From IMG/VR virus record IMGVR_UViG_3300046674_000084, positions 1 to 47,866 of that record: 47,866 nucleotides of DNA. One strand, 5' to 3'. The position numbers and the translations under genes are program-made. Positions 1,823 to 21,393 of this stretch are shown here, one piece after another (within the stretch, counting starts at the first letter, position 1; the number at the start of each line of letters is the position of its first letter). This DNA comes from a virus. The notes below the pieces were generated by a model. It had not been told where the DNA came from. It was given only the letters and a program-made list of their open reading frames with translations, and did no database searches.

Positions 1823-1852
1823 TTTATAGCATGGGTACAACGATAGCGTCAA
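1823..1852 (-). promoter_or_regulatory. Leftward sigma70-like promoter of the recombinase gene, TGTACCC family
   Basis: Read on the minus strand: TTGACG, 18 bp spacer, TATAAA. TGTACCC occupies spacer positions 8-14 (GGGTACA at 1833-1839 on the plus strand), exactly as in the rightward family members. Transcription would begin about 35-40 nt upstream of the recombinase ATG. Confidence 0.6.
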
Positions 1853-1959
1853 TGTTCGGGCAGACTGTCCACTATGTCTAAGCTAAGCGATAACGGTAAC
1901 TTGTTCCTAACTCCATTCCTTCAGCGAGGGTTAGCCCTAGGTAGACACTTCCCGTACTG

Positions 1960-2009
1960 TTGCGCGGGAAATACACATACAAATTAACGTAACCGTTTGC
2001 GCGAAAATA
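1960..2009. repeat. Direct repeat TTGCGCG(G/A)GAAATA-like
   Basis: TTGCGCGGGAAATA at 1960-1973 recurs as TTGCGCGAAAATA at 1997-2009, a 37 bp period. It could be a paired protein-binding site in the divergent control region. Function unknown. Confidence 0.4.
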
Positions 2010-2214
2010 GGGCCGGGGCGCTTGACTAATCCACACGTACGACACACAGAACACGACCTTACGCGCTCCCAGCCCAGCGAAATGTTTCTCTAAAGGTTCT
2101 TAAACGCCCATTCAAAAAACAATTGCTCTGTAAGTGGATGTAACCAATAATCCGTTTCGTTGTAGGACGAAAGACAGGAAGTACAGAGGTTGTGCGGGGT
2201 AGCAAACAAAGACG

Positions 2215-2243
2215 TTGACAGAGTATGTGTACTCCCGTACATT
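2215..2243 (+). promoter_or_regulatory. Rightward sigma70-like promoter, variant member of TGTACCC family
   Basis: TTGACA (2215-2220), 17 bp spacer, TACATT (2238-2243). The spacer contains TGTACTCCC, the family motif with one extra T, starting at the same spacer position as TGTACCC in the other promoters. Confidence 0.5.
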
Positions 2244-2346
2244 CCGTCTTGCCGGTTGCGGAACAAGCCGACCGGTAGAAGTTGCAGGGGAAGTAACAGC
2301 AAGTTTCACGGGTACAAAGAAAGTGTGTATGTGCGGTAACAAACGC

Positions 2347-2375
2347 TTGACACACGAAATGTACCCGGTTAAAGT
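2347..2375 (+). promoter_or_regulatory. Rightward sigma70-like promoter, TGTACCC family
   Basis: TTGACA (2347-2352), 17 bp spacer with TGTACCC at 2360-2366, and TAAAGT (2370-2375). Transcription would start near 2382, about 300 nt before the first gene. It is the best candidate for the immediate-early promoter of the rightward block. Confidence 0.6.
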
Positions 2376-2414
2376 GGAGTCTCAGTAGCAAACAGCAGCA
2401 AAAACGGTCTACAG

Positions 2415-2437
2415 CCGGGGACCATAAACCCGGTTTT
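2415..2437 (+). terminator. Weak intrinsic terminator or attenuator in the leader
   Basis: CCGGG (2415-2419) pairs with CCCGG (2429-2433) across a 9 nt loop and is followed by TTTT. It lies about 30 nt into the transcript predicted from the 2347 promoter. Confidence 0.4.
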
Positions 2438-2600
2438 CAAAAATGCTACTAAGAAGCCCCGAGGGAAGTTGAGCTAAGGGGAAACAAGGTAGCGGCGCTA
2501 GATTAGTAGATAGTCCTCGCATCAAGAAGACTAGCGCCTTGGCAAGTATCGTATGTAGACACACCGTCTCCCGAGCTACCAAGTAAAGACGAATTCCCAC

Positions 2601-2656
2601 AGGGGCCGCACTGGCCCCTAACACAAGGGCCTTCCAGACCACCGGAGGGCCTTTTT
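2601..2656 (+). terminator. Double hairpin with intrinsic terminator before the early block
   Basis: A 7 bp hairpin (AGGGGCC 2601-2607 with GGCCCCT 2613-2619) is followed by a second stem (2625-2635 with 2644-2653, about 10 pairs with one bulge) leading into TTTTT at 2652-2656. The second is a good Rho-independent terminator only 30 bp before the first rightward gene. Confidence 0.65.
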
Positions 2657-2686
2657 GTTATTGGGTCCAACTCAGGAAACAACCAC

Positions 2687-3085
2687 ATGACACGCACAGA
2701 ACGCCGTAAGCAATACTTCGACCAAGCCAAGCAAGTAGCGGTTGCGACGTTCAACCGGGAACGCAAGGCAATAGCCGCAGATAAAGACGCTGTGTACGCC
2801 ACGAACGTAAGCGAGCTTTCCCGGGCAGCAAACCAGATAGGCGTTATCAGGAATGACCGCCTAGTTATCCCTAAAGGCCCGATTCGAAAGGGCATGCAAG
2901 TAGGGATGACGCAAAGCACAGATTACGAGGGCCGCAGCATGACGCGGAGCGAGCGCGAAGCTAACCGCGTTGAAGCCCTCAAAAACTCCAAGCCGTTTAG
3001 TAGTACTAGCAGACCTCTTAACGCCGTACACGTAGCGGGCCACAGCGGCACGCGCGCCCACATCGACCAACGCACACCCTTTTAA
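2687..3085 (+). CDS. Hypothetical protein, first gene of the early block
   Basis: 132 aa, strongly basic and hydrophilic, with no recognised domain. The N-terminal third (MTRTERRKQYFDQAK...) is likely helical and Arg/Lys-rich, and the C-terminal half is Ser/Arg-rich and probably disordered. An AGGAAAC ribosome site precedes the ATG. It follows directly after a strong terminator, so it is expressed only by read-through or by a promoter I could not define. The immediate-early position suggests a host-takeover or regulatory role, but nothing in the sequence shows which. Confidence 0.75.
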   Translation: MTRTERRKQYFDQAKQVAVATFNRERKAIAADKDAVYATNVSELSRAANQIGVIRNDRLVIPKGPIRKGMQVGMTQSTDYEGRSMTRSEREANRVEALKNSKPFSSTSRPLNAVHVAGHSGTRAHIDQRTPF

Positions 3086-3087
3086 AC

Positions 3088-3336
3088 ATGCCCGCATACA
3101 AAGCGCTTCACATTACTAGCCGCAACGTGTCACAAGAAGTAGCTGCGCGGGCTTGCCTGACTCACTGTGGATTTCGTAGCCACAAAGACTACATGACACA
3201 AGACAACCGGGCCTACACGCTTACCGCGTTCGTGTCCTCCGCCGCTGATATGGCCGAATCCATCGAAGCGCTGCGTGCTTTGCTCCCGCTGGACTGCGTT
3301 GTAGCAGTCTCCAACCAATCTTTTATGAGTAACTAA
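3088..3336 (+). CDS. Hypothetical small protein
   Basis: 82 aa, starting 2 bp after the preceding stop, so probably translationally coupled. It contains beta-alpha alternation (YKALHITSRN..., AYTLTAFVSSAADMAESIEALRALLPLDCVVAVS) suggesting a small ferredoxin-like fold. No family recognised. Confidence 0.7.
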   Translation: MPAYKALHITSRNVSQEVAARACLTHCGFRSHKDYMTQDNRAYTLTAFVSSAADMAESIEALRALLPLDCVVAVSNQSFMSN

Positions 3337-3338
3337 CC

Positions 3339-3524
3339 ATGCGACGAACCCTTACTACCGGCCGACTCTCAACCCCGGGGCCACAGTACCAGACGCTACC
3401 TAAACGCCAATTGTCGCCAGCCGACCGCGAACTACGCGACCGCATCCGGGCCGCCTTCCGCCGCAAGCCTGAATACAGCGGTATCCCCAGCGCTACCAGC
3501 GCTTCAAGTCACAAGTATTTTTAA
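3339..3524 (+). CDS. Hypothetical small basic protein
   Basis: 61 aa, rich in Arg, Pro and Ser, starting 2 bp after the previous stop. A short predicted helix (SPADRELRDRIRAAFRRK) is the only structured part visible. No family recognised. Confidence 0.6.
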   Translation: MRRTLTTGRLSTPGPQYQTLPKRQLSPADRELRDRIRAAFRRKPEYSGIPSATSASSHKYF

Positions 3525-3550
3525 TTAGTACTACACCGGAACATGACAGC

Positions 3551-3712
3551 ATGAAAACGCAACGATTCGACACGGACACCGAGTACGCAACGCTGGATGA
3601 CTCGAAGCACAAACGCCAAGCGCGACAGCAGCGCAAGCGGGTAGAGCGCGAGCAACGCGAGGCCCGGTACGACGAAGACGAGCGCACGAACCGCCGCAAG
3701 TTCAAACACTAA
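3551..3712 (+). CDS. Hypothetical very small charged protein
   Basis: 53 aa starting MKTQRFDTDTEY and composed mostly of Arg, Lys, Glu and Asp in one long predicted helix (KHKRQARQQRKRVEREQREARYDEDE). It sits between two coding genes on the same strand and fills the gap with matching spacing; the upstream CACCGGAACATGAC is a weak ribosome site. Probably real; function unknown. Confidence 0.55.
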   Translation: MKTQRFDTDTEYATLDDSKHKRQARQQRKRVEREQREARYDEDERTNRRKFKH

Positions 3713-3726
3713 CCACGAGGTACAGA

Positions 3727-4107
3727 ATGTTTAAGCCTAACGATATGGTCCGCGTCACACGCAGCAACTACATGCACGGCACGCAACCGGGAGACATTGG
3801 CTATGTGTCCAACCCGGGCGAACGGACTACGCTTGTCAAGATGCACACGGGCACGTTTGCCGGGAAGTTCCGCGTTATCAGCAATAGCCGGTTGGAGTTG
3901 CGCCACTTGGAAGACGCAACGCCCAAGACGCCCAGCGTTCCCGAAGTAGACCCGCAAGACCACGTACGCATTATCTTTGGCGGCACGGTGACGGGCGAAC
4001 TTAAACACGCCTCCGCAACCGCCGCCGCCCGCTGGCTTGTAGACGAAGACCTACACGGTTCATTCGAGCTTGTCCGCTGTACCTCGCTTGGCAAATTCAC
4101 GCTTTAA
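3727..4107 (+). CDS. Hypothetical protein with SH3-like N-terminal half
   Basis: 126 aa. Residues about 1-60 (FKPNDMVRVTRSN..., TTLVKMHTGTF, KFRVISNSRLEL) look like a small beta-barrel of KOW/SH3 type. Residues 80-126 form a second small beta-alpha segment. A possible nucleic-acid or protein-binding early protein; no family assigned. Confidence 0.7.
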   Translation: MFKPNDMVRVTRSNYMHGTQPGDIGYVSNPGERTTLVKMHTGTFAGKFRVISNSRLELRHLEDATPKTPSVPEVDPQDHVRIIFGGTVTGELKHASATAAARWLVDEDLHGSFELVRCTSLGKFTL

Positions 4108-4140
4108 TTTCACTCCACACAACTTAAAGGAAACCACACC

Positions 4141-4518
4141 ATGACGAACGCTACCCAAATCTCCGCCATCGAAAAGCAAGAAGCCGTTGTAGCCGCAGCT
4201 ATCGCCAAGCTGGACAAGCTGCGTAAGCAAGAGTCCGCCGCCGCCCTTATCGCCAACGTGCAAGCCGGGGACGTGATTACGTTCGTCTTCGGTCGCAAGG
4301 CTGGCCGTGCTGAATTCACGGGCGAAGTTCGCAGCGTGACCGACACGGACAAGGGCCGCGTTATCCGCGTGATTAAGGGCGCGGGCTTGGACGAGGAAAT
4401 CGTTTCGATTCGTCCGGGCGATATCGTAGGCAAGGGCGTAGTTAGCCGGGGTGACGTTGCGGAACCGACCGCACAGCCGCAAGCCGCCAACGATGACCCG
4501 CTCGCAGCATTGCAATAA
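4141..4518 (+). CDS. Hypothetical protein with SSB-like acidic C-terminal tail
   Basis: 125 aa. An N-terminal helix (about 5-40, KQEAVVAAAIAKLDKLRKQE) precedes a beta-rich KOW/SH3-like core (about 42-100), a flexible linker, and the terminal residues ANDDPLAALQ. That tail is nearly identical to the end of the probable ssDNA-binding protein at 12169-12993 (ANDDPLSSMG), so both may dock on the same replication partner. The ribosome site AAAGGAAA is good. The nucleic-acid role is inferred from fold impression and tail only. Confidence 0.75.
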   Translation: MTNATQISAIEKQEAVVAAAIAKLDKLRKQESAAALIANVQAGDVITFVFGRKAGRAEFTGEVRSVTDTDKGRVIRVIKGAGLDEEIVSIRPGDIVGKGVVSRGDVAEPTAQPQAANDDPLAALQ

Positions 4519-4562
4519 GTAGCACCGCAGCAAACCACACTAACTGACTTGGAGTACACAGC

Positions 4563-4799
4563 ATGGCAAACGCAACGCAGAAAGAATACGTCGTCAAAGA
4601 GGTAACGCTTGAAATGACGGAAGTTGAAGCTAACTTTCTGGCGGACTTGCTCCGCCTCGTATCAGGTAACCGGGACGCAAGCCGCCGCCGCCATGCGGAC
4701 GCGATGATTGAGGCTATGCGCGTACTGGGTATCGTTGGCTACGGTCCACACGACATAGCTACAGACTACGACGTACGTTTCCTCAGCCCCGACGCCTAA
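4563..4799 (+). CDS. Hypothetical protein, paralogue of the next gene
   Basis: 78 aa with pattern VTLEMTEVEANFLADLLRLVSGN-x3-SRRRHADAMIEAMRVLGI. The following gene (4821-5051) has the same beta-helix-helix layout with TSRRRLTDNVADALYGVGF, so the two arose by tandem duplication. Proteins of this outline are frequent unknowns in phages. Function not known. Confidence 0.75.
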   Translation: MANATQKEYVVKEVTLEMTEVEANFLADLLRLVSGNRDASRRRHADAMIEAMRVLGIVGYGPHDIATDYDVRFLSPDA

Positions 4800-4820
4800 C
4801 AATTAGGAGTACACCGCAAC

Positions 4821-5051
4821 ATGGCTATTGCTACCAGACTGACAACCGCCGTAACTGTCCTCTACCTGAGCAACGAGGAAGCGCAAGTACTTTGCGACAT
4901 TGCCTCACGCGTTGGAGGTTGCCCGGATACGTCCCGCCGCCGCCTGACGGACAACGTAGCGGACGCGCTGTACGGCGTTGGCTTCCGCTTCACGGACTCT
5001 ACAGACCTTGCGGACGGATTGTCCCGCCTGTACTTCGAGGACCGCACGTAA
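4821..5051 (+). CDS. Hypothetical protein, paralogue of the previous gene
   Basis: 76 aa and alignable end to end with the product of 4563-4799 through the E-A-x2-L, SRRR and ADA.x.GxG positions. A TTAGGAG ribosome site precedes the ATG. Its stop overlaps the next start (TAATG), indicating coupling. Confidence 0.75.
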   Translation: MAIATRLTTAVTVLYLSNEEAQVLCDIASRVGGCPDTSRRRLTDNVADALYGVGFRFTDSTDLADGLSRLYFEDRT

Positions 5052-5248
5052 TGGACAACTTCTACATTTGCGACAACCAAGGCAACGCCCGGGGACACCG
5101 TAGCGGGTATCCAACGCGAGAGTCCGCCGTACGCGGGCTGGACACGGACATAGACGCTAACCCAGCGTATCCGTATGAGTTCCCTTTTACCGTGCGCGAC
5201 AGCCAAAACGAGATTGTCCACACGCTTCCCCTTTCAGCTAGGAGCTAA
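5051..5248 (+). CDS. Hypothetical small protein
   Basis: 65 aa beginning MDNFYICDNQGNARG. Its ATG overlaps the preceding TAA, which supports this start over an in-frame upstream ATG. It has several beta-strand-like segments and acidic stretches. No family recognised. Confidence 0.65.
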   Translation: MDNFYICDNQGNARGHRSGYPTRESAVRGLDTDIDANPAYPYEFPFTVRDSQNEIVHTLPLSARS

Positions 5249-5252
5249 CCGC

Positions 5253-5642
5253 ATGTACGCCACTTTCCCGTTTGTGTGTGACTTTGCAATGGCCGGTATC
5301 CGTCAAGCGTTGCGCAACCGCCGCGCCCGGAAGCTGGCCCGCGAAATTGCGGAGGTTAAGGGGCTGGCCGACAGCTACGACAAAGAGCGCGCCGCGCTTC
5401 TGAAAGAGGCCGCCGACCACTACCGGACCCGCGATATGTACCGGGCCGCCGCGCGTGACCTTGTGGCCCGGGACGGCGAGGTCACTTGTTATGCCGTGGA
5501 CGCGTACTACATCGCGGAAGACGCGGGTATCTGGTACGACGCATGCCACGAGCGGGCAGAGGACGCCGCCGACAACCACGCCAACGCAATGTACCTCCTC
5601 GAAGTGCTGGAAGACGAGCTACACGACTTGACTATTGACTAA
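5253..5642 (+). CDS. Hypothetical helical protein
   Basis: 129 aa, mainly alpha-helical with long charged heptad-like segments (RRARKLAREIAEVKGLADSYDKERAALLKEAADHY and the acidic C-terminus). The ATG at 5253 is chosen because TAGGAG lies about 9 nt upstream; an upstream in-frame ATG inside the previous gene lacks one. Probably a coiled-coil protein; function unknown. Confidence 0.7.
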   Translation: MYATFPFVCDFAMAGIRQALRNRRARKLAREIAEVKGLADSYDKERAALLKEAADHYRTRDMYRAAARDLVARDGEVTCYAVDAYYIAEDAGIWYDACHERAEDAADNHANAMYLLEVLEDELHDLTID

Positions 5643-5656
5643 CCCTAGGAGCGCGC

Positions 5657-6472
5657 ATGGAATCACGGGACTGGCTGAAGCATGCGCAAGCGCTCCCGGA
5701 AGGGGTAACCCGCAAGATTGCGCATGATTGCGGCGGCGGGGAACCTCTCCAAATCAACCACAAGAAAGAGGGCTGGGGCGCGTATTGCCATCGTTGCGGA
5801 TACAAAGGCTTCGAACGCCGCCCCGCTGAAAACCTCGCAGAGAAGCTAGCCCGCCTAGCGCGTATGAAGGCCGTAGAAGAGGCCGTAGAGACGGACCCTA
5901 CGCCGCCCCTTCCCGCTGTCTACGAGCCGCAAGGCTGGCCTCTGGACGCGCGGGTATGGCTTTATAAGGCGGGTATCAGCAACGCAGAGATTGAGGCCCT
6001 TGGGTTCTACTGGAATCCGGACCTTCAACGCGTCGTTATGCCGGTCTACAACAGCGCGGGCGTACCCGTGTACTACCAAGCGCGCACGCTGGACAAGACC
6101 AACCCAAAGAAGTACCTGAACCCGTCAGTAGATAAGACGCGCCTGATAGTGCGCTACGGGGACGGACCCGCGACAGTCCTAACGGAAGACATGCTTAGCG
6201 CCTACAAGGTTAGCCGTGTGGGCGTAGCTGGATTGTCGCTACTAGGTACGACACTAAACGACAACACGCTAACGGAGCTAATCCGAGCATGTAAGCCCGT
6301 GTACGTAGCGCTGGACCCGGACCACGCGGGGCGCACTGCCGCCGCAGAGATTATGCGGAAGCTGAGGGCCTATAACGTGACGTGTGTAGACGCTAAGTTC
6401 CCGCGTGACCCTAAGTTACTCAACAGAGAGGAGATAAGCGCTTGTCTGAATCTGAACGCATCAAAGAGCTAG
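5657..6472 (+). CDS. DNA primase, zinc-finger plus TOPRIM
   Basis: 271 aa. The N-terminal zinc-binding domain shows H23-x-C25 and C44-x2-C47, as in the T7 gp4 primase half. The central-to-C-terminal TOPRIM core has the conserved glutamate in VLTEDMLSA (E177) and the metal-binding DPDHAG (D220, D222). It synthesises RNA primers for lagging-strand replication. In T7 primase and helicase are one polypeptide; here they are separate genes with a 44-residue reading frame between them. The primase end overlaps that small frame. Assignment is firm from motifs. Confidence 0.9.
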   Translation: MESRDWLKHAQALPEGVTRKIAHDCGGGEPLQINHKKEGWGAYCHRCGYKGFERRPAENLAEKLARLARMKAVEEAVETDPTPPLPAVYEPQGWPLDARVWLYKAGISNAEIEALGFYWNPDLQRVVMPVYNSAGVPVYYQARTLDKTNPKKYLNPSVDKTRLIVRYGDGPATVLTEDMLSAYKVSRVGVAGLSLLGTTLNDNTLTELIRACKPVYVALDPDHAGRTAAAEIMRKLRAYNVTCVDAKFPRDPKLLNREEISACLNLNASKS

Positions 6473-6576
6473 AGCAACAGGTTAAAGACTTGCGTGCGGA
6501 GCTTAGAAAGTATCAACCCGCCGGGGCGAAGGTCAACGGCGAAATCCTCTACCACAAGCGGAAGGTATCCCAGTGA
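6442..6576 (+). CDS. Small coiled-coil protein between primase and helicase
   Basis: 44 aa starting from TTG at 6442 with a good AGGAG site 8 nt upstream. It overlaps the primase 3' end by 31 bp and ends in TGA overlapping the helicase GTG. The sequence opens with a clear heptad helix (SESERIKELEQQVKDLRAELRKY). Given its place, it could help tie the separate primase and helicase together. That role is inference; the open frame and ribosome site are visible. Confidence 0.55.
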   Translation: MSESERIKELEQQVKDLRAELRKYQPAGAKVNGEILYHKRKVSQ

Positions 6577-7865
6577 GTTTAGACACAACCCTATTGCGTT
6601 TGCTGAAGACCCGCGAACGTTTCGACCGGCTGGCCCGGGCTGTACCTCGTTCCGCTATCGACGTTGGAACCGGGGCCGTGTTGGATTACTTCAAGCGCTA
6701 CCTGACAGAGCATCCGGACGTATCGGTTATCACGTTGGAACCGTTCCTTTTGTGGCACGCCATCGCGTTCCCCAGCTTGGACGATAACGACCGGGGACTT
6801 GTCCGGGCGCGCATGCAAGGCGTACTTGCGGAAGACGCGGACCCAGCGCTAGAGGCGGGCATTATGGAGCGCTTGCTTGCGGCGGAGACGGCCAACCGCG
6901 TAACGGACCTTATCACCAAGTATCAGGAAGGCGCGGAGGTTGACCTTTACAACGGACTGCGCGCGGAACTGGACACATACGAGCAACAGACTACCCGCAA
7001 GGTAGCTTTGCCTTGGGTCCGGGATAGCATTGACGATATCTTGCTTGACGATAAAAACGACCGTGGGCTTAAGTGGCGTCTCGAATGTCTCAACATGGTT
7101 ATGCGTCCCGTGCGCCCCGGGGATTTTATTATCATCGCTGGCCGTCCGGACAAGGGCAAGACCACGTTTGTAGCCTCCGAGGTTACGTACATGGCGGAGC
7201 AATTCGACGAGTATTACGGACTGGGCCACGGGCGTAGCGTGCTCTGGTTTAACAACGAAGGACCGGGCCGCCGCATCGTTAGCCGCGTCTACCAATCCGC
7301 GCTAGGTATCAGCATGGCGGATATGGTGAAGTACTCCAACGATAAATCCCTTGCCTCGCGCTACGCGGACAAAGTAGGGGACTTGGACCGTATCCGCATC
7401 TTGGACATACACGGGCGGAGCACGCACGAAGTAGAAGACATTATGCGCAAGATGAAACCCGGCTTAGTCATCTTTGACATGGTCGATAACATCAATTTTG
7501 GCGGGTCCACTCTCAACGGCGGACAGCGTACGGACCAATTGCTAGAGGCCATGTACCAATGGGCGCGTCTCATGGGCGTTAAGCACGACGTACCCGTTAT
7601 CGCTACCTCGCAGATTAGCGGAGACGGAGACGGGGTGCCGTTCCCAACACTGAGCCAGCTTAAGGACAGCAAGACGGGCAAGCAAGGCGCGGCGGACGTA
7701 ATCGTTACGCTAGGCGCTAGCAACGAGTCACACCTTGAAGGCGTCCGCTGGATTGGCTTGACTAAGAACAAATCACACCGGGCGGGCGCGCCCAAGTCCC
7801 CGCGTGCGGAAGTCATCTTTGACGGAGAGCGCGCGCGGTTGCTCATGCCAGCGGAGGCCGCTTAA
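6573..7865 (+). CDS. Replicative DNA helicase, DnaB/T7 gp4 RecA-fold
   Basis: 430 aa starting from GTG, overlapping the previous stop (GTGA). The C-terminal RecA-like motor has Walker A GRPDKGKTT (190-198) and Walker B LVIFDMVD (D302), followed by an ATSQISG sensor-like segment and an arginine/lysine-rich loop near TKNKSHR. The N-terminal 150 residues are helical, as in replicative helicases. It unwinds DNA ahead of the phage polymerase as a hexameric ring. Neighbouring primase, polymerase and exonuclease support the role. Confidence 0.9.
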   Translation: MSLDTTLLRLLKTRERFDRLARAVPRSAIDVGTGAVLDYFKRYLTEHPDVSVITLEPFLLWHAIAFPSLDDNDRGLVRARMQGVLAEDADPALEAGIMERLLAAETANRVTDLITKYQEGAEVDLYNGLRAELDTYEQQTTRKVALPWVRDSIDDILLDDKNDRGLKWRLECLNMVMRPVRPGDFIIIAGRPDKGKTTFVASEVTYMAEQFDEYYGLGHGRSVLWFNNEGPGRRIVSRVYQSALGISMADMVKYSNDKSLASRYADKVGDLDRIRILDIHGRSTHEVEDIMRKMKPGLVIFDMVDNINFGGSTLNGGQRTDQLLEAMYQWARLMGVKHDVPVIATSQISGDGDGVPFPTLSQLKDSKTGKQGAADVIVTLGASNESHLEGVRWIGLTKNKSHRAGAPKSPRAEVIFDGERARLLMPAEAA

Positions 7866-7960
7866 TGGACGAGCATTACCTAGTACTACTGCGCAACCTG
7901 TACAACGCGTACGCCGACTTTTGGGAAGCGTGCCTAGACCACATCGAGGAGACACTTTGA
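7865..7960 (+). CDS. Possible 31-residue peptide
   Basis: Short frame MDEHYLVLLRNLYNAYADFWEACLDHIEETL exactly bridging the helicase stop (TAATG overlap) and the ligase start (its TGA overlaps the ligase TTG). The tight packing suggests it is translated, if only to couple the flanking genes. An acidic amphipathic helix is likely. Confidence 0.45.
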   Translation: MDEHYLVLLRNLYNAYADFWEACLDHIEETL

Positions 7961-8856
7961 TTCCGACCGGCTTTAAACCGAACCTTGCCGCAACCCTGAC
8001 GAAGCCCGAGCTAATCAAGTTCCCTGTGTGGGCGTCCCCGAAAATTGACGGTATCCGCTGCGTGGTCTTCGGAGGCGTCGCGTACTCGCGTAGCCTTAAA
8101 CCAATCCCTAACGCGTTCGTCCAAGAATGGGCGCATATGAACCGCCACGCGCTAGAAACGCTGGACGGGGAGCTAGTAGTAGGAAGCCCTACGGACCCTA
8201 ACGCCATGCAAAACAGTATGGCCGTAATGCGCAAGACGGGCACGCCACACTTCAGGTTCTATGTCTTCGATGCCTATATGCCGCGCGCGCCGTTCGTAGA
8301 GCGTAAGGGGTTCGTGTCTAACTGTCTCCGGGCGTACAAGCCGCCGCGTGCGTTTGTCGTAACGCAAGCGCACGTACAGACCGCCGCCCGGTTGGACGAG
8401 CGCGAGGCGGAGTACTTGGAACACGGATTCGAAGGAATGATGATTCGTGACCCGGGCCGCCTGTACAAATGTGGCCGCAGCACGGAGCGGGAAGGCGGGC
8501 TTGTGAAGGTCAAGCGCTTTGTAGACGCTGAGGCCATTGTCTACGGGTTCGTTGAGGAAATGCACAACACGAACGAGGCGAAGACGGACGCGCTAGGTAG
8601 CACAGAGCGGAGCACGGCTAAGGCGGGGCTTGTAGGTAAGGGCACGCTAGGCGCGCTTATGTGTATGGACGAGCACGCCCGGGCGTTCAACATCGGTACG
8701 GGCTTCAGTGCCGCACAGCGCGCGGAGATTTGGCGCGACCGGGACAGATACGAGGGGCAGCTAGTCAAGTTTAAGTACTTCGACCACGGTATTAAAGAAG
8801 CGCCCCGCCATCCGGTCTTTATCTCATTCCGACACGAGGACGATACGAGCAAATGA
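7957..8856 (+). CDS. ATP-dependent DNA ligase
   Basis: 299 aa. The nucleotidyltransferase core carries motif I SPKIDGIR with the nucleophilic lysine K29, the FYVFDAY motif, EGMMIRDP (motif IV) and LVKVKRF (motif V). An OB-fold follows, with LGALMCMDEH and a terminal KYFDHGIKEAPRHPVF segment typical of T7-type ligases. Start chosen at TTG 7957 because AGGAG lies 5 nt upstream and it overlaps the preceding TGA; KIDG at 29-32 then sits at the expected distance. It seals nicks between Okazaki fragments. Confidence 0.9.
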   Translation: MIPTGFKPNLAATLTKPELIKFPVWASPKIDGIRCVVFGGVAYSRSLKPIPNAFVQEWAHMNRHALETLDGELVVGSPTDPNAMQNSMAVMRKTGTPHFRFYVFDAYMPRAPFVERKGFVSNCLRAYKPPRAFVVTQAHVQTAARLDEREAEYLEHGFEGMMIRDPGRLYKCGRSTEREGGLVKVKRFVDAEAIVYGFVEEMHNTNEAKTDALGSTERSTAKAGLVGKGTLGALMCMDEHARAFNIGTGFSAAQRAEIWRDRDRYEGQLVKFKYFDHGIKEAPRHPVFISFRHEDDTSK

Positions 8857-9407: not shown

Positions 9408-9421
9408 GAGTACAGCTAGAT

Positions 9422-12150: not shown

Positions 12151-12168
12151 CCATAAGGACTACAAACA

Positions 12169-12993: not shown

Positions 12994-12997
12994 GCGT

Positions 12998-14572: not shown

Positions 14573-14796
14573 AAGTAGCAGTACTAAAAGCTGGCTGGAC
14601 GACGATTGGCGCGCGTGACCGGTACCGCGTCCTAGTCCAGCTTGGAAGCGCGCGCAAGGGCAACTTCTTACGCTTGGAACGCTGGGTCAACCACGCGGAC
14701 GGGCACGGATACGGCGGCATGCGGGAATTTATCGAGCGCGATCTACACGCCAATCTTGGCCGCGCCGTAATCGAACAACTTATTAAAGGACTCTGA
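14569..14796 (+). CDS. Hypothetical small protein
   Basis: 75 aa from TTG at 14569, overlapping the previous TGA and preceded by AAGGAGG (14558-14564). It has a short beta-rich N-terminus (MKVAVLKAGW, DRYRVLVQLG) and a helical C-terminus. No family recognised. It sits between two nucleases. Confidence 0.6.
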   Translation: MKVAVLKAGWTTIGARDRYRVLVQLGSARKGNFLRLERWVNHADGHGYGGMREFIERDLHANLGRAVIEQLIKGL

Positions 14797-14799
14797 CTT

Positions 14800-15588
14800 A
14801 TGACTACTCCCCGCATCCTCGTATTGGATATCGAAACGTCCCCTATCCTCGCGCACGTTTGGGGTATCTGGCAGCAGAACGTAGGGCTTAACATGATTAA
14901 GGCGGAATGGTGCATCTTGTCCTATTGCGCTAAGTGGCTGGGCGATGACCGCATTATCTACGCCGATAATAGCAAGCAAAAGAATAAGGAAGACGACCGC
15001 CGCCTTTTGGTACACCTGTGGAAGCTGTTGGACAAGGCCGATATGGTCATTGCGCACAACGGCAAGAAGTTTGATATGCGCAAGATTCAAGCGCGCTTCC
15101 TCCTTAACGGTATGCCGCCGCCGTCCCCGGTTAAGGTTATCGACACCTTGCTAGAGGCCCGCCGCCATTTTGCGATGACTAGCCAGAAGTTGGAATTCCT
15201 TACGGACAAGCTTTGTACTAAGCATAAGAAGCTGAAGCACGCCAAGTTTGCCGGGTTTGCGCTGTGGCGCGAATGCCTTGCCGGTAATCAGGAAGCATGG
15301 GCCGAAATGAAGGAATACAACATTGCGGACGTGCTGAGCTTGGAGGAGCTTTACTACATTCTCCGCCCTTGGATGACGGGTCACCCGAACGTGGGCGCGT
15401 ACAACCCGGACGAAACGACGGACGCCGCCAAGTGCCCCGCCTGTGGTTCGTTGGACGTTATCCGCAAGGGCCAGCGCTACACGCAAGTAGGCCAGTACAC
15501 GCGCTATCTGTGCAAGTGCGGGCATTGGTCGCGGGGCCGCCTCATGACGAACACGAAGGAAGCCCGTAAGAATTTGCTTGTCTCGTAA
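14800..15588 (+). CDS. DEDD-type 3'-5' exonuclease with C-terminal zinc ribbon
   Basis: 262 aa. An RNase H-fold exonuclease domain has LVLDIETSP (D10, E12), AHNGKKFDMRKI (D92) and KEYNIADVLSLEEL (later aspartate), the DEDD pattern. The C-terminal about 60 residues contain CPACGS and CKCGHW, a zinc ribbon. Such stand-alone exonucleases occur in phages alongside a proofreading polymerase. The ribbon suggests binding to DNA, RNA or a protein partner. Substrate unknown. Confidence 0.8.
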   Translation: MTTPRILVLDIETSPILAHVWGIWQQNVGLNMIKAEWCILSYCAKWLGDDRIIYADNSKQKNKEDDRRLLVHLWKLLDKADMVIAHNGKKFDMRKIQARFLLNGMPPPSPVKVIDTLLEARRHFAMTSQKLEFLTDKLCTKHKKLKHAKFAGFALWRECLAGNQEAWAEMKEYNIADVLSLEELYYILRPWMTGHPNVGAYNPDETTDAAKCPACGSLDVIRKGQRYTQVGQYTRYLCKCGHWSRGRLMTNTKEARKNLLVS

Positions 15589-15600
15589 TAGTTAGGACTA

Positions 15601-15628
15601 CCCCGCTAGGCGTCTTGCTTGGCGGGCT
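15601..15628 (+). terminator. Hairpin between exonuclease and nucleotide-pool gene
   Basis: A 10-pair stem including G-U pairs (CCCGCTAGGC with GCTTGGCGGG) around GTCTT. There is no U-tract, so it is more likely a transcript-processing or stability element than a full terminator. Confidence 0.35.
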
Positions 15629-15653
15629 ATCAATCACACACTGAGGACACTAA

Positions 15654-16148
15654 ATGAAAACCAACATGAAAGAGAACCTTGAAAAATTCCTGACCCTCAC
15701 GTCCGCGCAACTGGGGCCGGACGCCAAAGACCCGAACCCCAAGGACTCAATCGGTAGCTCAAAGATTCCAATGCATCTTTGGCCGATGGAAGCAACAGTA
15801 CTAGGCGCGCTTGCCCTGTTGGACGGGGCCGGTAAGTACGGGCGTAGTAACTTCCTCGTAGCACCCGTGCGCGCTTCCATCTATTACGACGCCGCTATGA
15901 GGCACCTTGGTAAGTGGTTTGCCGGGGAGGAAGTGGACGAGGACAGCGGAGTCCCGCACTTGGGCCACGTACTAGCATGCTCCGCCATCCTCGTAGCCGC
16001 GCAAGCGAGCGGAACGCTGATAGACGACCGCAACGTTAAGAACGGCGCGTGTGAATTCCTTAAGCGGTACACGCCGCTTGTGACAGCTATCCAAGATAAG
16101 CACCGTGGCAAGACGCCCAGACATTACACGATTGCGGACAGCCAATGA
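15654..16148 (+). CDS. dATP/dGTP diphosphohydrolase-like protein (DUF5664/MazZ type)
   Basis: 164 aa matching the all-alpha phage family annotated as dATP/dGTP diphosphohydrolase: KYGRSNF, YYDAAMRHLGKWFAGEEVDEDSG, then PHLGHVLAC. The E92-E93-x2-E96-D97 cluster with H102 and H105 is the metal-binding signature. It likely hydrolyses purine dNTPs and so shapes the dATP pool, together with the HD enzyme at 8853. In 2-aminoadenine phages comparable enzymes act with PurZ, but no purZ is in this window. The family match is good; exact substrate is inferred. Confidence 0.75.
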   Translation: MKTNMKENLEKFLTLTSAQLGPDAKDPNPKDSIGSSKIPMHLWPMEATVLGALALLDGAGKYGRSNFLVAPVRASIYYDAAMRHLGKWFAGEEVDEDSGVPHLGHVLACSAILVAAQASGTLIDDRNVKNGACEFLKRYTPLVTAIQDKHRGKTPRHYTIADSQ

Positions 16149-16321
16149 AGGCTAAGCCCGTCTACTACAAAGACGTTCGCGTAGCTCCTAACAGCGCGCT
16201 ATACGCAGCGCTAGAGGAAGCGCGGACAGCCAAGACAACACCAGAACGCCGCGCCGCAGAGAAGCGCGCAAAGGCCATCTATGACGAATGCGAAAAGGAG
16301 TACCGGAAATGGAACGTTTGA
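16145..16321 (+). CDS. Hypothetical small basic protein
   Basis: 58 aa starting MKAKPVYYKDVRV; its ATG overlaps the previous stop (ATGA). The second half is a charged helix rich in Glu, Lys, Arg and Ala. It overlaps the next gene by 13 bp. No family recognised. Confidence 0.6.
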   Translation: MKAKPVYYKDVRVAPNSALYAALEEARTAKTTPERRAAEKRAKAIYDECEKEYRKWNV

Positions 16322-16500
16322 CCGCCGCGATTGCTGAAGCCTCATACAACGCCTTTTATAACCTCGTGGCGTGTGCGCTAGAGACAGGGAACAAAGAGCG
16401 GGCCGGGGATTACCTGCTAGCCGCTTACGAGCATTTGCCCGAGTTAGAAGCGGAGCGTATGGAACGCGAACTTACAAAAGACTATTACGAATTCACCTAA
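16309..16500 (+). CDS. Hypothetical small acidic helical protein
   Basis: 63 aa from ATG 16309 with AGGAG 8 nt upstream. The sequence looks like a helical pair (ALETGNKERAGDYLLAAYEHLPELEAERMERE). It directly precedes the RNA polymerase gene. A regulator of that polymerase is conceivable from position alone. Confidence 0.6.
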   Translation: MERLTAAIAEASYNAFYNLVACALETGNKERAGDYLLAAYEHLPELEAERMERELTKDYYEFT

Positions 16501-16508
16501 AGGAAACC

Positions 16509-18836
16509 ATGCAAACCGTAACCGCCTATCAAGCTTCCCGCCGCGAAAAGCGCGCGGTAACCCTTAACCGACCGCCGAAGGAACGCCCGTACGCCATTGG
16601 ACACGTTGAGGGCTTGATTGCGGACGGTAAGCTTGGCCTTGTAACTCGACAGCTTGCACGCGAGGCCGCCAGTAGCCGGAAGGTTACGGAATCGGATATG
16701 CGTTTGGACGCTATCGACGTTGCGCTTAATGATTTTGCTAACTTACTTGCCCCGGTCGTTACACGCTTTCGCAAGGTGGATAACAAGCGCGTAGAGGTTA
16801 CGGAGAAGGTTCTTATCCAGTTTGACGGGCGGGGCACTAACCCTGTTAGCAAGCTGGACGTGCTCCAACTCGTGGAGGCTACGTGGTCCGGGCTGGGCGG
16901 TGCATGGGGCCGTATGATGACGCTGGAAGGCGCTAGCGTACAGAGCGTCGCTAAGCGTATTGGGGCAAAGCTTAAAGAGAAGTGCGGAGGGGCGGACGAA
17001 CATAAGCGGCTGGGCTACGAGCAATCAGCCCTAGTCCTTATCGATTACTTTTGTGAGGCCACGGGCTGGGCCACAGAGGAAACCGGAGAGCGTATGTTTG
17101 CCTCCGTGAAGCAAGAGACTAACAGCCTCGTAGCTACGCCTAAGTTCCTGAAGACGGTACTAGAAGAGGAGCTTACGGACTTTATCGAAGGTAAGCCTAT
17201 GCTCGTTCCGCCCGTGCCGTGGCTGGTAGGTAAGGAGCACGGCGGGTATCTGTACGCGCAAGTCCCGGCAATTCGGGGCCGCCGTAAAGGCATTGAGGGG
17301 CAAGCAATCGTAGACGCTCTGAACGCCCTACAGGCTACCGCATGGCGCGCTAATCGCCGTGTGCTGGACGTGGCGCAAGTTGCGGAGCGGGCGGCGCTGT
17401 CTGTCTACATTGAAGCGCTGGACGCGGTTGTAGAGGAGCGACATTCCGGAGACGTTGCGGAATACCACAGCACCAAAATTCGGGCCGCCCTCACGCTGGA
17501 CACTTTCACCGAGCTACAAGACGAAGAGGCGTTTTACTTCCCGTGGAATCTCGATTGGCGGGGACGCATGTATAGCGCTACCACGATTGTAGGGCCGCAA
17601 GGTAGCGACCTCTGTAAAGGGCTGTTGGAGTTTGCAGAGGGTACCCCGCTGGGCCGGGACGGCGGACGCTGGCTAGCTATCACGCTGTGTAATCTGTACG
17701 GCGCGGACAAGCGGAGAACCGCAACGGGAGGGAAGGAAAACCTAAAGGCGGACGAGCGCGTAGAGTGGACGGAAGACCACGCGGAAATGATTCTGCGCGT
17801 AGCTACGGACCCGCTCGCTAACCGGGACTGGCAAGACGCGGACAAGCCGTACCAATTCCTAGCCGCGTGCTTCGAATGGGCGGGCTACATGGTAGAGGGC
17901 GAAGGCTTCCGTAGCCGCTTGGCGGGCGGGCTGGATGGTTCGTGTTCGGGCGTCCAAATGCTGGCCGGGATGACGCGGGACGAATCCGCCGGGGAAATGG
18001 TCAACCTTACGCCGACAGAGCGCGGGGACGATTATTACGGGCGTATGGCGGACGCGTTGAAGGCTGGACTTGCTAGCCTGTCTATGAACCCTAACGAGCG
18101 CGACAAGGCGCATTTGCCGTACTGGAAGGGCAAGACGATTGACCGGGACTTGCTGAAAGGCCCTAGTATGACGAAGGTGTACAGCGCGGGCGTCTTCACC
18201 TTTGCGGAGCAAGTAGCCGGGAAGGCCGGGGCGGACGAATCACATTCCCTCTGGCTAGCCCGTCAAATCAACGCGTGCTTTGCCTCCGTGGCCCCGGGCA
18301 TGCTGGCCGCTATGGATTACCTACAGCGCGTAGCGGACGTGCTTACGGAAGCGGGATTACCGCTCAACTGGACGACGCCCGCCGGGCTGGTAGTCAAACA
18401 AGAGGCGTTTGGCGAGATTACACACGACCTCGTAACTAAATCGTTTGGGGTTATGCGCAAGCGCGACTTCAAGACCCGTACCAAGAAGCTTAGCAAGCGC
18501 GCCCAAAGAGCGGGAGTAAGTCCAAACTTCGTTCACGGCGTGGACGCGGCGCACATGGTTGCTACGGTCAACGCACTAGCCGCCCGGGGCGTTAAGAACT
18601 TCTGGATGGTTCACGATTCGTTTGGTGCGCCGTACGCCCAGTGCCAAGATGTATTTGATTGCACGCGGGACACGTTCGTTACGCTTATGTCCGGAGACTT
18701 GCTGGACGTGTGGACGAAGCAAGTAACGGCGGGGCTGGAAACGTTCCCCAAGCTGGTAGCCAAGTTGCCGACGTTGCCGACGTACGGGAAGCTGGACTTA
18801 GAAGGCGTCCGGGAATCCGGGTTTGCGTGGTTCTAA
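16509..18836 (+). CDS. Single-subunit (T7-like) DNA-directed RNA polymerase
   Basis: 775 aa, about 100 shorter than T7 RNA polymerase, mostly in the N-terminal promoter-binding region. Catalytic motifs are intact: DWRGRMYS; motif A DGSCSGVQ with D476; motif B KGPSMTKVYS with K550 and Y558 (equivalents of K631 and Y639); and motif C VHDSFG with D703. The C-terminus ends GFAWF, like the FAFA foot of T7. It would transcribe middle and late phage genes from its own promoters, which I could not define. A ribosome site AAAGGAAA lies upstream. It closes the early block, as expected if the host polymerase transcribes 2687-18836 first. Confidence 0.95.
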   Translation: MQTVTAYQASRREKRAVTLNRPPKERPYAIGHVEGLIADGKLGLVTRQLAREAASSRKVTESDMRLDAIDVALNDFANLLAPVVTRFRKVDNKRVEVTEKVLIQFDGRGTNPVSKLDVLQLVEATWSGLGGAWGRMMTLEGASVQSVAKRIGAKLKEKCGGADEHKRLGYEQSALVLIDYFCEATGWATEETGERMFASVKQETNSLVATPKFLKTVLEEELTDFIEGKPMLVPPVPWLVGKEHGGYLYAQVPAIRGRRKGIEGQAIVDALNALQATAWRANRRVLDVAQVAERAALSVYIEALDAVVEERHSGDVAEYHSTKIRAALTLDTFTELQDEEAFYFPWNLDWRGRMYSATTIVGPQGSDLCKGLLEFAEGTPLGRDGGRWLAITLCNLYGADKRRTATGGKENLKADERVEWTEDHAEMILRVATDPLANRDWQDADKPYQFLAACFEWAGYMVEGEGFRSRLAGGLDGSCSGVQMLAGMTRDESAGEMVNLTPTERGDDYYGRMADALKAGLASLSMNPNERDKAHLPYWKGKTIDRDLLKGPSMTKVYSAGVFTFAEQVAGKAGADESHSLWLARQINACFASVAPGMLAAMDYLQRVADVLTEAGLPLNWTTPAGLVVKQEAFGEITHDLVTKSFGVMRKRDFKTRTKKLSKRAQRAGVSPNFVHGVDAAHMVATVNALAARGVKNFWMVHDSFGAPYAQCQDVFDCTRDTFVTLMSGDLLDVWTKQVTAGLETFPKLVAKLPTLPTYGKLDLEGVRESGFAWF

Positions 18837-18900
18837 AGTTTTCCGGGACCGTGCCGATAACAGCAGGGTATCCGGATTGTGCGGAATAGAAATAAAAAGG

Positions 18901-18931
18901 TTGACACAGTAAATGTACCCCGTGTTAGGAT
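18901..18931 (+). promoter_or_regulatory. Sigma70-like promoter of TGTACCC family, accessory cassette 1
   Basis: TTGACA (18901-18906) with TGTACCC at 18914-18920, the same spacer position as other members, then TAGGAT (18926-18931) with a longer 19 bp spacing. A leader containing CTGAGTCAACC leads to GAAACGAAATG at 18960-18968. Confidence 0.55.
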
Positions 18932-18965
18932 ACGTCTACTGAGTCAACCAACAGCGAGAAACGAA

Positions 18966-19163
18966 ATGAACGAGCACACGGACGCGGAAGCAATCGGGCA
19001 AGAATACGGCGGTATGTACGTGGTCTACCGGTACTGGATGAATAAGGGCGTCCAGTATCAAGTAATCGACGCGGACGGTACCGGGCGCGGGTATTTCGAG
19101 AGCTTGCAGGTATGCAAAAAGGCAATCGACACCATTAACAAGATTGGCTTCTACCGCCGCTAA
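18966..19163 (+). CDS. Hypothetical protein of accessory cassette 1
   Basis: 65 aa, small beta-rich protein (MYVVYRYWMNKGVQYQVIDADG). The ATG at 18966 follows the common leader end GAAACGAAATG seen in the other cassettes. No family recognised. Its own host-type promoter suggests expression in the lysogen or very early. Confidence 0.6.
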   Translation: MNEHTDAEAIGQEYGGMYVVYRYWMNKGVQYQVIDADGTGRGYFESLQVCKKAIDTINKIGFYRR

Positions 19164-19167
19164 CCAA

Positions 19168-19185
19168 CCCGCCCGCTACGGCGGG
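19168..19185 (+). terminator. Short GC hairpin between cassette genes
   Basis: CCCGCC (19168-19173) pairs with GGCGGG (19180-19185), loop CGCTAC. No U-tract; may weaken read-through or stabilise the upstream mRNA end. Confidence 0.35.
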
Positions 19186-19203
19186 CCTCCCGGAGAAAGT
19201 ACA

Positions 19204-19422
19204 ATGCTGGTAACTACGCAATTGACGCAGACGACGCGGGTAACGCGTTCGCGCCATACCGGGGAACCGGTCTTGCAGACGCTTAACACGGAGTACGGCT
19301 ACTACTCCGGAGGACGCAAGCTGTCCGAGGAAGAGGCCGCCAAGCTGGCCGCCCAGCCGCCCTACACTGGCGAGAAGCATCCGGCGGAAGTTGAGTACGA
19401 GAAGCACAGCAACAGTTTCTAA
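19204..19422 (+). CDS. Hypothetical small protein
   Basis: 72 aa from ATG 19204 with GGAGA upstream. Threonine-rich N-terminus (MLVTTQLTQTTRVTRSRHTG) and a charged, proline-containing C-terminus. No family recognised. Confidence 0.6.
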   Translation: MLVTTQLTQTTRVTRSRHTGEPVLQTLNTEYGYYSGGRKLSEEEAAKLAAQPPYTGEKHPAEVEYEKHSNSF

Positions 19423-19452
19423 CCACACACATAACCTACGAGGGTCTACACC

Positions 19453-19716
19453 ATGAAAAAATTCGCTATCGTCTTCGCACTGGCCGCCGCTTTCTCCGCT
19501 CCCGCATTCGCGGACGGTAACGGCGCGGGCGCTAATGGCGGTTCCACGGGCCAAGGCAACGGCGGGGAGCTTGTCAGCCTTGGCTACTTCCCCGGCTGGC
19601 AAACGGCTAGCCCCGCCAAGCGTGAAGCGCTGGCCGCTGAGCAAGCCGCCCAAGTGGCAAAGAGCAACCCGCCCGAGGCGTTGAAGTTCCCGGCATGGGT
19701 CCAAGTCTCGAAGTAA
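19453..19716 (+). CDS. Secreted (periplasmic) small protein
   Basis: 87 aa with a textbook Sec signal peptide: MKK, a hydrophobic core to about residue 17, then APAFA cleaved before DGNG. The mature protein is about 67 residues, glycine/asparagine-rich at the start and helical after. No lipobox cysteine, so soluble periplasmic. In a prophage accessory cassette it could be a superinfection-exclusion or envelope-modifying factor; that is inference. Ribosome site ACGAGGG. Confidence 0.7.
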   Translation: MKKFAIVFALAAAFSAPAFADGNGAGANGGSTGQGNGGELVSLGYFPGWQTASPAKREALAAEQAAQVAKSNPPEALKFPAWVQVSK

Positions 19717-19727
19717 GCAACACACGC

Positions 19728-19748
19728 GAGGGGCCAACCGCGCCCCTC
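19728..19748. terminator. Hairpin between convergent genes
   Basis: GAGGGGC (19728-19734) pairs with GCCCCTC (19742-19748). It lies between the rightward secreted-protein gene and the leftward endolysin, where a two-way terminator is expected; no U-tract is visible on either strand. Confidence 0.4.
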
Positions 19749-19761
19749 CGCCCTCCTCGCT

Positions 19762-20262
19762 TCAAATCCCCGCTACACACTGGGCGTACTCCGCCTTTCT
19801 CCGCGTATCGAGTCCCGGAAGGACTACGAGCACGCCCTTTACCTTCCCCTTGTTCCACAGTAGCAACTGAGCACACGCCCCGCGCCTGTCCCCAGCCTTC
19901 AGCTTCCGCAGAAGCGTAGAGCTAGCGAACGCACCGCCGCCGACGTTGAATACGAAGTCCGTGTAGGCCAGCCGTTCCCCGTCCGATAGCGTCCCGCTGT
20001 AGTACTTCGACACGAGGCCCGCCGCCTCTTTCAAGTCCCGGGCGAACATGACGCTACAGTCCTCGTCCGTATAGACCGTACCCGCCTTCAGGGGCGTTCC
20101 GTCCGGGGCGTAGCTGTCGTGGCCTACGCAAACCGCCTTGTGCCCTACAGGGTCCGTGTAGACCGCATTAACAACCCCTTCAAAGCTGGCCGTGAAGCTG
20201 GCCGTAGCTACCAACGCAGCGCCCGCAATGGTCGCAATTATCCGCGTGTTGAGTCTCCCCAT
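19762..20262 (-). CDS. Endolysin, phage lysozyme with SAR-like N-terminus
   Basis: 166 aa of the T4/P21 lysozyme type. Residues about 8-26 are a weakly hydrophobic Ala/Gly/Thr segment, as in signal-anchor-release endolysins. Catalytic positions are E28 (SFEGV) and D37 (YTDPVG); the third usual residue, threonine, is alanine at 43 (HKAVCVGHD). The start at 20262 has GGGAGA 7 nt upstream; a GTG 27 nt further up overlaps a promoter and is less likely. It cleaves peptidoglycan. It is about 3.5 kb from the holin/spanins, with the par/rep module in between. Confidence 0.85.
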   Translation of the reverse strand: MGRLNTRIIATIAGAALVATASFTASFEGVVNAVYTDPVGHKAVCVGHDSYAPDGTPLKAGTVYTDEDCSVMFARDLKEAAGLVSKYYSGTLSDGERLAYTDFVFNVGGGAFASSTLLRKLKAGDRRGACAQLLLWNKGKVKGVLVVLPGLDTRRKAEYAQCVAGI

Positions 20263-20282
20263 AAAATTATCTCCCAAAAGTA

Positions 20283-20311
20283 TTGACACAAAAGATGTAC
20301 CCGATTATTCT
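20283..20311 (+). promoter_or_regulatory. Sigma70-like promoter of TGTACCC family, accessory cassette 2
   Basis: TTGACA (20283-20288), 17 bp spacer with TGTACCC at 20296-20302, TATTCT (20306-20311). The upstream CTCCCAAAAGT is shared with the promoter at 21323. On the opposite strand the same bases offer TAGAAT, a possible -10 for the divergent endolysin gene, so the two may interfere. Confidence 0.65.
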
Positions 20312-20347
20312 AACAACTCACCAACACGAACCAGCCGGGAAACGAAA

Positions 20348-20698
20348 ATGAACGCTCTTACAACCGTGAAACTCATTGACCGCACGACGGGCTATGTCTT
20401 CGACGCCTACTTGGCCGAAGGAGAGGAAGTGGACTTTTCGATTTTTACGAATGACGTTGACTACGCGGACGCCCCGGTTATCACGCTTGAAGCGGAAGGC
20501 GTCGTAGTGCTGGAAGCGGGCGCAACGCTTACGGCGGAAGTCCGCGCCAAGCTGGCAACGCTCCCCGCCGCTACGGCTAACCGCCGCGCCGTCGTGGCCG
20601 CTACCGGTTCCGTGTCGTACGAGGTATGGCGCCGCGTGAAGGATTACGGCGGGCTGGAATTCTCCGGCTGTGGCGTGTACCGCTGGATTGCTCAGTAA
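20348..20698 (+). CDS. Hypothetical protein of accessory cassette 2
   Basis: 116 aa. ATG at 20348 follows the cassette leader GGGAAACGAAAATG. Beta-rich N-terminal half (VKLIDRTTGYVFDAYL, PVITLEAEGVVVLE) and a C-terminal segment with an aromatic finish (VWRRVKDYGGLEFSGCGVYRW). No family recognised. Confidence 0.65.
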   Translation: MNALTTVKLIDRTTGYVFDAYLAEGEEVDFSIFTNDVDYADAPVITLEAEGVVVLEAGATLTAEVRAKLATLPAATANRRAVVAATGSVSYEVWRRVKDYGGLEFSGCGVYRWIAQ

Positions 20699-20709
20699 CT
20701 AAACCGCCG

Positions 20710-20726
20710 CCCGGGCGTATCCCGGG
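20710..20726 (+). terminator. GC hairpin after cassette 2 gene
   Basis: CCCGGG (20710-20715) and CCCGGG (20721-20726) are self-complementary across CGTAT. No U-tract; weak terminator or stability element. Confidence 0.3.
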
Positions 20727-20756
20727 TAACCCCGCAGCTACGTAGGACTACTGAAA

Positions 20757-20942
20757 ATGAAAACCAAGAAGGTGTACAAGCGCCCGGACGGGCTGGTTAA
20801 AGCCGTAGTGAAGCTGGACGAGGAGTACGACGAGTGGCAAGTATGGCTTTACCGGGCCGGGAAGGAGGTTAAGGCCGCCCGCTACCATGCCGCCGACGAG
20901 CAAGACGCACACGCTACCGCGCAACTCATGGTGAAGGGCTGA
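20757..20942 (+). CDS. Hypothetical small protein
   Basis: 61 aa, basic N-terminus with a beta hairpin pattern (AVVKLDEEYDEWQVWLYRAGKEV) and a C-terminal helix. Resembles a small AP2/Arm-type three-strand domain but is too short to assign. TAGGAC upstream. Confidence 0.55.
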   Translation: MKTKKVYKRPDGLVKAVVKLDEEYDEWQVWLYRAGKEVKAARYHAADEQDAHATAQLMVKG

Positions 20943-20944
20943 GC

Positions 20945-21088
20945 GTGATATTCCGGAAGCTACGGGCCGTCTACCGGCTGTGGTCCCGGGAGCGCTCCGC
21001 CCGGTTGCTGGCTAGTGACCCGTGGCTAACGGAGCAACGCGCCAAGCTGGACGAGTTCAAACGGCTACACTCTCACCTGTTTAAGTAA
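20945..21088 (+). CDS. Possible small basic helical protein
   Basis: 47 aa from GTG 20945, two bases after the previous stop: IFRKLRAVYRLWSRERSARLL and on to HSHLFK. No strong ribosome site, but the reading frame fills the gap between two genes and is probably coupled. Confidence 0.4.
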   Translation: MIFRKLRAVYRLWSRERSARLLASDPWLTEQRAKLDEFKRLHSHLFK

Positions 21089-21101
21089 GCGAGAACCCAA
21101 A

Positions 21102-21308
21102 ATGCGAGTGACTATCACGGCGGTAAACGCAGCAATTAAGGCGGCTGGCGGGGACGAGGAGCTAGTTAAGGGTAACGGCTACTTCTACTTTGTCGGCGCG
21201 GAGACGCCGCTATGGGCGCAAGCCAGCGTCTACACAACGCGCCTAGGGGACTTGACCGTAGACGAATGGGTAGACGAGTGGCGCGAACTGAAAGAACGCC
21301 GACAATAA
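21102..21308 (+). CDS. Hypothetical small protein
   Basis: 68 aa. Pattern ITAVNAAIKAAGGDEELVKGNGYFYFVG, then a TRLGDLTVDEWVDEWREL helix. This layout (helix, beta pair, helix) recurs in small phage proteins of unknown role. No function assigned. Confidence 0.6.
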   Translation: MRVTITAVNAAIKAAGGDEELVKGNGYFYFVGAETPLWAQASVYTTRLGDLTVDEWVDEWRELKERRQ

Positions 21309-21322
21309 GACTCCCAAAAGTG

Positions 21323-21351
21323 TTGACACGGTTTATGTACCCGGATATTCT
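21323..21351 (+). promoter_or_regulatory. Sigma70-like promoter of TGTACCC family, accessory cassette 3
   Basis: TTGACA (21323-21328), 17 bp spacer with TGTACCC at 21336-21342, TATTCT (21346-21351). Here GTACCCG (21337-21343) forms a perfect inverted repeat with CGGGTAC (21353-21359), spanning the -10. A dimeric regulator could bind this site. Confidence 0.7.
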
Positions 21352-21393
21352 ACGGGTACTGACTCACCACAACCCCGAACGGAACTAACCGAA

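Follow-up and report, generated by a model that had tools for sequence, protein, structure and literature searches.

Which factor reads the short sequence TGTACCC that recurs within the promoters of this soil bacteriophage? The window, meaning the whole stretch of 47,866 bases that was analysed, had been predicted to hold six promoters related by this element and perhaps governed by either one regulator or one unusual core promoter element. All five promoters said to share TGTACCC at a fixed place are present as exact TTGAC(A/G)-N7-TGTACCC sites (1833-1852 on the minus strand; 2347, 18901, 20283 and 21323 on the plus strand), with the element at spacer positions 8-14 between the -35 and the -10. 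The sixth, at 2215, does carry a variant (TTGACA-N7-TGTACTCCC). The predicted enrichment over shuffled DNA also holds: with both strands counted, 5 of the 69 TTGACR sites share TGTACCC at one offset, while simulations reach at most 3, both in 3,000 Markov sets and in 3,000 sets drawn from the real DNA of the window. Eight TTGACR sites are intergenic, five of them with the exact element and one with the variant. By itself, TGTACCC shows no more than a mild enrichment (nine copies against 5.3 expected), and six of the nine copies are intergenic, as compared with 6.5% of the DNA (p = 5e-6). It is the placement of TGTACCC, not its bare abundance, that stands out. Mapped features are listed in Table 1.

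Table 1. Promoters, element copies and genes of the window referred to in the text.
Feature	Position	Strand	Basis
Candidate repressor (ORF 849-1778), 309 aa, tyrosine-recombinase fold	849..1778	-	Pfam Phage_integrase 1.2e-7, alignments, AF2
Promoter of ORF 849-1778: TTGACG, 18-nt spacer, TATAAA; TGTACCC 1833-1839	1823..1852	-	
Early promoter E1: TTGACA-17-TACATT; putative operator variant GTGTACTC	2215..2243	+	
Inverted extra TGTACCC between E1 and E2, 50 bp upstream of E2 element	2310..2316	-	
Early promoter E2: TTGACA-17-TAAAGT; TGTACCC 2360-2366	2347..2375	+	
T7-like single-subunit RNA polymerase	16371..18836	+	PHROG 414, 5.5e-154
Cassette promoter M1, directly 3' of RNA polymerase gene; TGTACCC 18914-18920	18901..18931	+	
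Cassette promoter M2, divergent from lysozyme: TTGACA-17-TATTCT; TGTACCC 20296-20302	20283..20311	+	
Cassette promoter M3: TTGACA-17-TATTCT; TGTACCC 21336-21342	21323..21351	+	
Inverted GGGTAC directly downstream of M3 -10	21354..21359	-	sequence
Plasmid-type maintenance module (ParA, Rep and a protein that is RHH-like by sequence), taking the place of an integrase	21950..23591	+	

Relatives were collected by searches with the window RNA polymerase (about 28 phages, 47-65% identity). Several KGTACCC/TGTACCT promoters were found in G026, G029 and G030, with no matches to a reversed control pattern. Two phages were checked after the motif had been defined. In L163 the element is TGCACCC in the ORF promoter, at the same position as in the window, and TGTACCT in both E1 and E2; the layout between the early promoters is also the same, and here ATGTACCT lies inverted, 44 bp upstream of the E2 element. 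L157 has TGTACCC. The E1 homologues of G001-G003 show GTGTACTCNCGTACATT, and the counterparts of M2, which follow the lysozyme gene in these phages, read TTGACA-N7-GGTACCC at the same position; no good element was found in their E2 promoters. In the window, the -10 of M1 is poor (GTTAGG at the 17-nt spacer, with TAGGAT only at 19 nt).

Other features near these promoters were also observed. The early leader (window 2376-2686) is long and non-coding, and blocks such as CGCTACTGAGAAACCCAAAGGG and GCAAGGTAGCAAC are kept in the leaders of L157, G030 and G026; it is possibly a structured RNA, and an Rfam search of it gave no convincing match. A GTTGCAAGTTGTAAC-like element, which may be a second regulator site, is conserved upstream of the early promoters in G026, G030, L163 and L157. 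The position after the M promoter is a cassette site: in G001 its gene encodes a ribbon-helix-helix-like protein (about 24,670-24,870, minus strand), and in G002 and G003 it holds other small genes.

Across 28 promoters from eight clade A phages, conservation is confined to spacer positions 8-14 (0.8-1.6 bits each, against about 0.5 or less elsewhere). The clade B element is GTGGGCCAG, which in G013 is repeated 33 bp upstream, before the -35. In clade C, GTGTCCC occurs in the early promoters, and the ORF promoter has GGGACA, which is TGTCCC on the other strand. Clade D (G014-G016) showed no clear shared element. Overall, the sequence of the element goes with the phage significantly (0 of 2,000 permutations as high); this test fails when clade A is left out (1286 of 2000 as high), and the differences of clades B and C are therefore observations, not statistics. 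In those fetched sister phages that have a CI repressor, no exact TTGACR-N7-TGTACCC was found, and a single site matched with one mismatch (TCGACA-N7-TGTACCC in G006).

ORF 849-1778 adjoins the early promoters, and its transcription leads away from these. The original prediction took it for a recombinase under the control of the element. This part has to be revised: to judge from its residues, the protein is no working recombinase, and the leading candidate for the regulator is this very protein. The sole domain found was a weak match to Phage_integrase. The sequence has TALTQQE for TGLRxxE, FNDLRK for HxLR and LGY for LGH, corresponding to Arg to Thr, HxxR His to Asn and His/Trp to Tyr, and the nucleophile Tyr is missing. 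All homologues checked have another residue for the TGLRxxE Arg, and Asn or Gly for the HxxR His; the window clade has additionally lost the last His/Trp and the nucleophile Tyr. True integrases of these related phages, identified by HMM searches and alignment, retain the catalytic Arg in 14 of 14 cases against 0 of 15 in the inactivated group, and the catalytic His in 14 of 14 against none of the 14 readable members of that group. Single-linkage ORF clustering mixed both kinds of protein, but the tree separates them, with the inactivated proteins forming one branch (support 93/88).

The AlphaFold2 model of the protein, which is confident (pLDDT 84.8), matches XerA, lambda Int, Cre, YopR/MrpR and SroF over its C-terminal half (XerA, 2.7e-6 in Foldseek; VIA, Z 15.8 over residues 143-304). 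Residues 1-54 are predicted to form three strands and a helix. In the model these 54 N-terminal residues appear to resemble an arm-binding domain, and one member of the inactivated group gave a weak Arm-DNA-bind_4 match.

The distribution of the protein was compared with that of other lysogeny genes. It is carried by 15 fetched phages, none of which has a CI-type S24/HTH repressor, and such a repressor occurs without the inactivated protein in six phages (G004, G005, G006, G008, G010 and G012). In the two of these that were examined, G004 and G005, the CI gene fills the matching slot between HNH/terminase and the early genes. A true integrase is present in nine of the 15 carriers and ParA in the other six, with zero overlap, suggesting a switch between integrated and plasmid lysogeny. 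ParA replaces the integrase in the window, G026, G027, G028, G029 and G031, some of which also have Rep. Since integrase and ParA are mutually exclusive among the carriers, the inactivated protein is not the integration enzyme, and its constancy while the maintenance mode varies fits a repressor. The link between protein and element rests on their co-occurrence in genomes and is thus confounded by phage lineage.

The window phage probably has a plasmid lifestyle. In addition to the genes of Table 1, it encodes a family A DNA polymerase, a DnaB-like helicase, a Toprim primase, a terminase, capsid genes and a lysozyme. Boxes TTATCCACAG and AAGTGTTCAA are repeated at 23625-23736, adjoining Rep, and are likely a plasmid-type origin. 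Around the ParA promoter (21870-21960), the repeated CCCGTATCGTACGG / GGGCGTATCGTATG are likely sites of the RHH-like partition protein. Positions 1-423, from the HNH gene to the end of the record, are rich in short CCTAGG/CTATAG-like palindromes, unlike the remaining genome, and are possibly an end or origin region. A tRNA gene was detected in the record of the relative L161 (3875-3959; Rfam, 58.7 bits). A genome scan found a relative of the RNA polymerase on one host contig only, from Pararobbsia alpina, and the phage hosts are therefore probably Burkholderiaceae.

We consider it likely that TGTACCC is the operator of a lysogeny repressor, and that the protein of ORF 849-1778, with catalysis lost and DNA binding kept, is its reader. 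The prediction of a single regulator is well supported and probably right; the element is non-random and behaves like an operator, and the relatives with a CI repressor lack it. That the operator is read by a different regulator, either a host protein or a small phage protein that escaped annotation, with ORF 849-1778 serving in some other role, is rather unlikely. Several small early ORFs have no assigned function and could encode such a regulator, and in G001 the sequence of the gene that follows the M promoter suggests a ribbon-helix-helix protein. However, no DNA-binding domain was found among the small window ORFs scanned, and the G002 and G003 genes at that place look unrelated to the G001 protein. 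As for a host protein, a scan of one related host genome (6.7 Mb) gave 41 one-mismatch matches against 32 for the control, and none exact. Two further candidates within the window were set aside: the ParA/RHH operon has its promoter at 21870, with repeats of another kind and without TGTACCC, and no HTH repressor was found elsewhere among the ORFs scanned, except for the HTH of the Rep protein.

The other half of the predicted choice, in which TGTACCC would be a core promoter element (of the spacer or Z-element type) acting on promoter strength or sigma contact, is improbable. In its favour, the position is fixed in most promoters, and the -35 is strong and the spacers are 17 nt long. A sigma70 core element is fixed in orientation and position, but inverted and displaced copies are found here; outside the spacers there are 14 copies where 5.7 are expected, a count reached by 2 of 500 shuffles. 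Moreover, in both G030 and L157 GGGTACCC takes up the -10 position of the ORF promoter, the element diverges between clades, with the G013 copy lying upstream of the -35, and the CI-type relatives do without it. From its sequence context, the element behaves like an operator and not like a core promoter element. Recent duplication of a promoter cassette, with no selection on the element, is still less probable as the source of the likeness: M2 and M3 share a 42-nt repeat (81% identical), but the remaining promoters have in common only the -35 and the element, and in many phages the information is limited to positions 8-14 with differing flanks. Finally, the phage encodes a single-subunit RNA polymerase, yet the sigma70 -35 fixed at 17-nt spacing makes it extremely improbable that the sites are promoters of that enzyme. 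Upstream of the late structural operon, where promoters of the phage polymerase were sought, neither TGTACCC nor a shared element was found.

Returning to the operator reading, the placement of the promoters fits control of the lysogenic/early programme by the element. The repressor would bind the asymmetric element of about 7-8 bp within the -35/-10 spacer, and host sigma70 polymerase would thereby be excluded. Its targets would be the two early and the three cassette promoters, and its own promoter would be repressed too, giving negative feedback. With the inverted extra copies near E2 and M3, binding may in addition be cooperative. Once repression is lifted, host polymerase would transcribe the early genes, including the gene for the phage RNA polymerase. 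In this scheme we infer DNA binding, repression, autoregulation and an induction trigger. More tentatively, at chances that we put a little below even, such proteins could constitute a separate class of immunity repressors derived from inactivated integrases and common to integrating phages and phage-plasmids. Clade-specific operators would then define immunity groups, and the N-terminal arm-type domain could bridge two kinds of DNA site.

If the reading is correct, the gene annotated as an integrase encodes a repressor, and the annotation would wrongly make the phage look like an integrating one. One genomic slot would be filled either by a classical CI repressor or by an inactivated integrase. 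The MrpR/SroF idea, known from Bacillus phages, would reach phages and phage-plasmids of probable Burkholderiaceae hosts. Through the operator family, immunity groups and, more generally, the evolution of recombinases into transcription factors could be approached directly.

Among known systems, the CI/LexA-type S24 repressor of the sister phages occupies the same slot by the early genes in G004 and G005, but it is an unrelated protein with an HTH and an S24 peptidase, a combination of domains that was not found in ORF 849-1778, and the promoters of those phages lack TGTACCC. The immunity repressor and stoperators of Cluster A mycobacteriophages (PMC9283540) are alike in that one repressor serves many dispersed asymmetric sites. 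They differ in that no related protein was seen, and the window sites lie in promoter spacers, where a role in stopping elongation is not indicated. SroF of phage phi3T (PDB 9RD5, 9RGL), named a repressor in the PDB title, has the same fold (Z 11-12); its host belongs to another phylum, and the sequence profile match has an E-value of only 0.11.

MrpR (YopR), the master repressor of the Bacillus prophage SPbeta, has a tyrosine-recombinase fold without most of the catalytic residues (PMC10516654; PDB 8A0A). Its Arg is V/S and its His is Asn, it does not recombine, and its binding site is a 15-bp element that recurs in ten promoters of the prophage (PMC10516654). The model of ORF 849-1778 aligns with 8A0A at Z 10.2 (rmsd 3.8 over 148 residues). 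In the profile search for sequence kinship, SroF reached only the E-value given above and MrpR was not among the matches listed, so ORF 849-1778 is not classed as an MrpR homologue. The two proteins differ in host (Bacillus against probable Burkholderiaceae), in the Tyr, kept by MrpR and lost in the window clade, in the element, and in the extra N-terminal beta-rich domain of the window protein; the relatives of the window are maintained by an integrase or as plasmids. They have in common the recombinase fold, the loss of the catalytic Arg, the change of His to Asn, and an element repeated at multiple promoters of the same genome, and in SPbeta as well a separate recombinase carries out integration. 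Going by anatomy, we infer an autoregulated lysogeny repressor that would work like MrpR of SPbeta, with an additional N-terminal domain.
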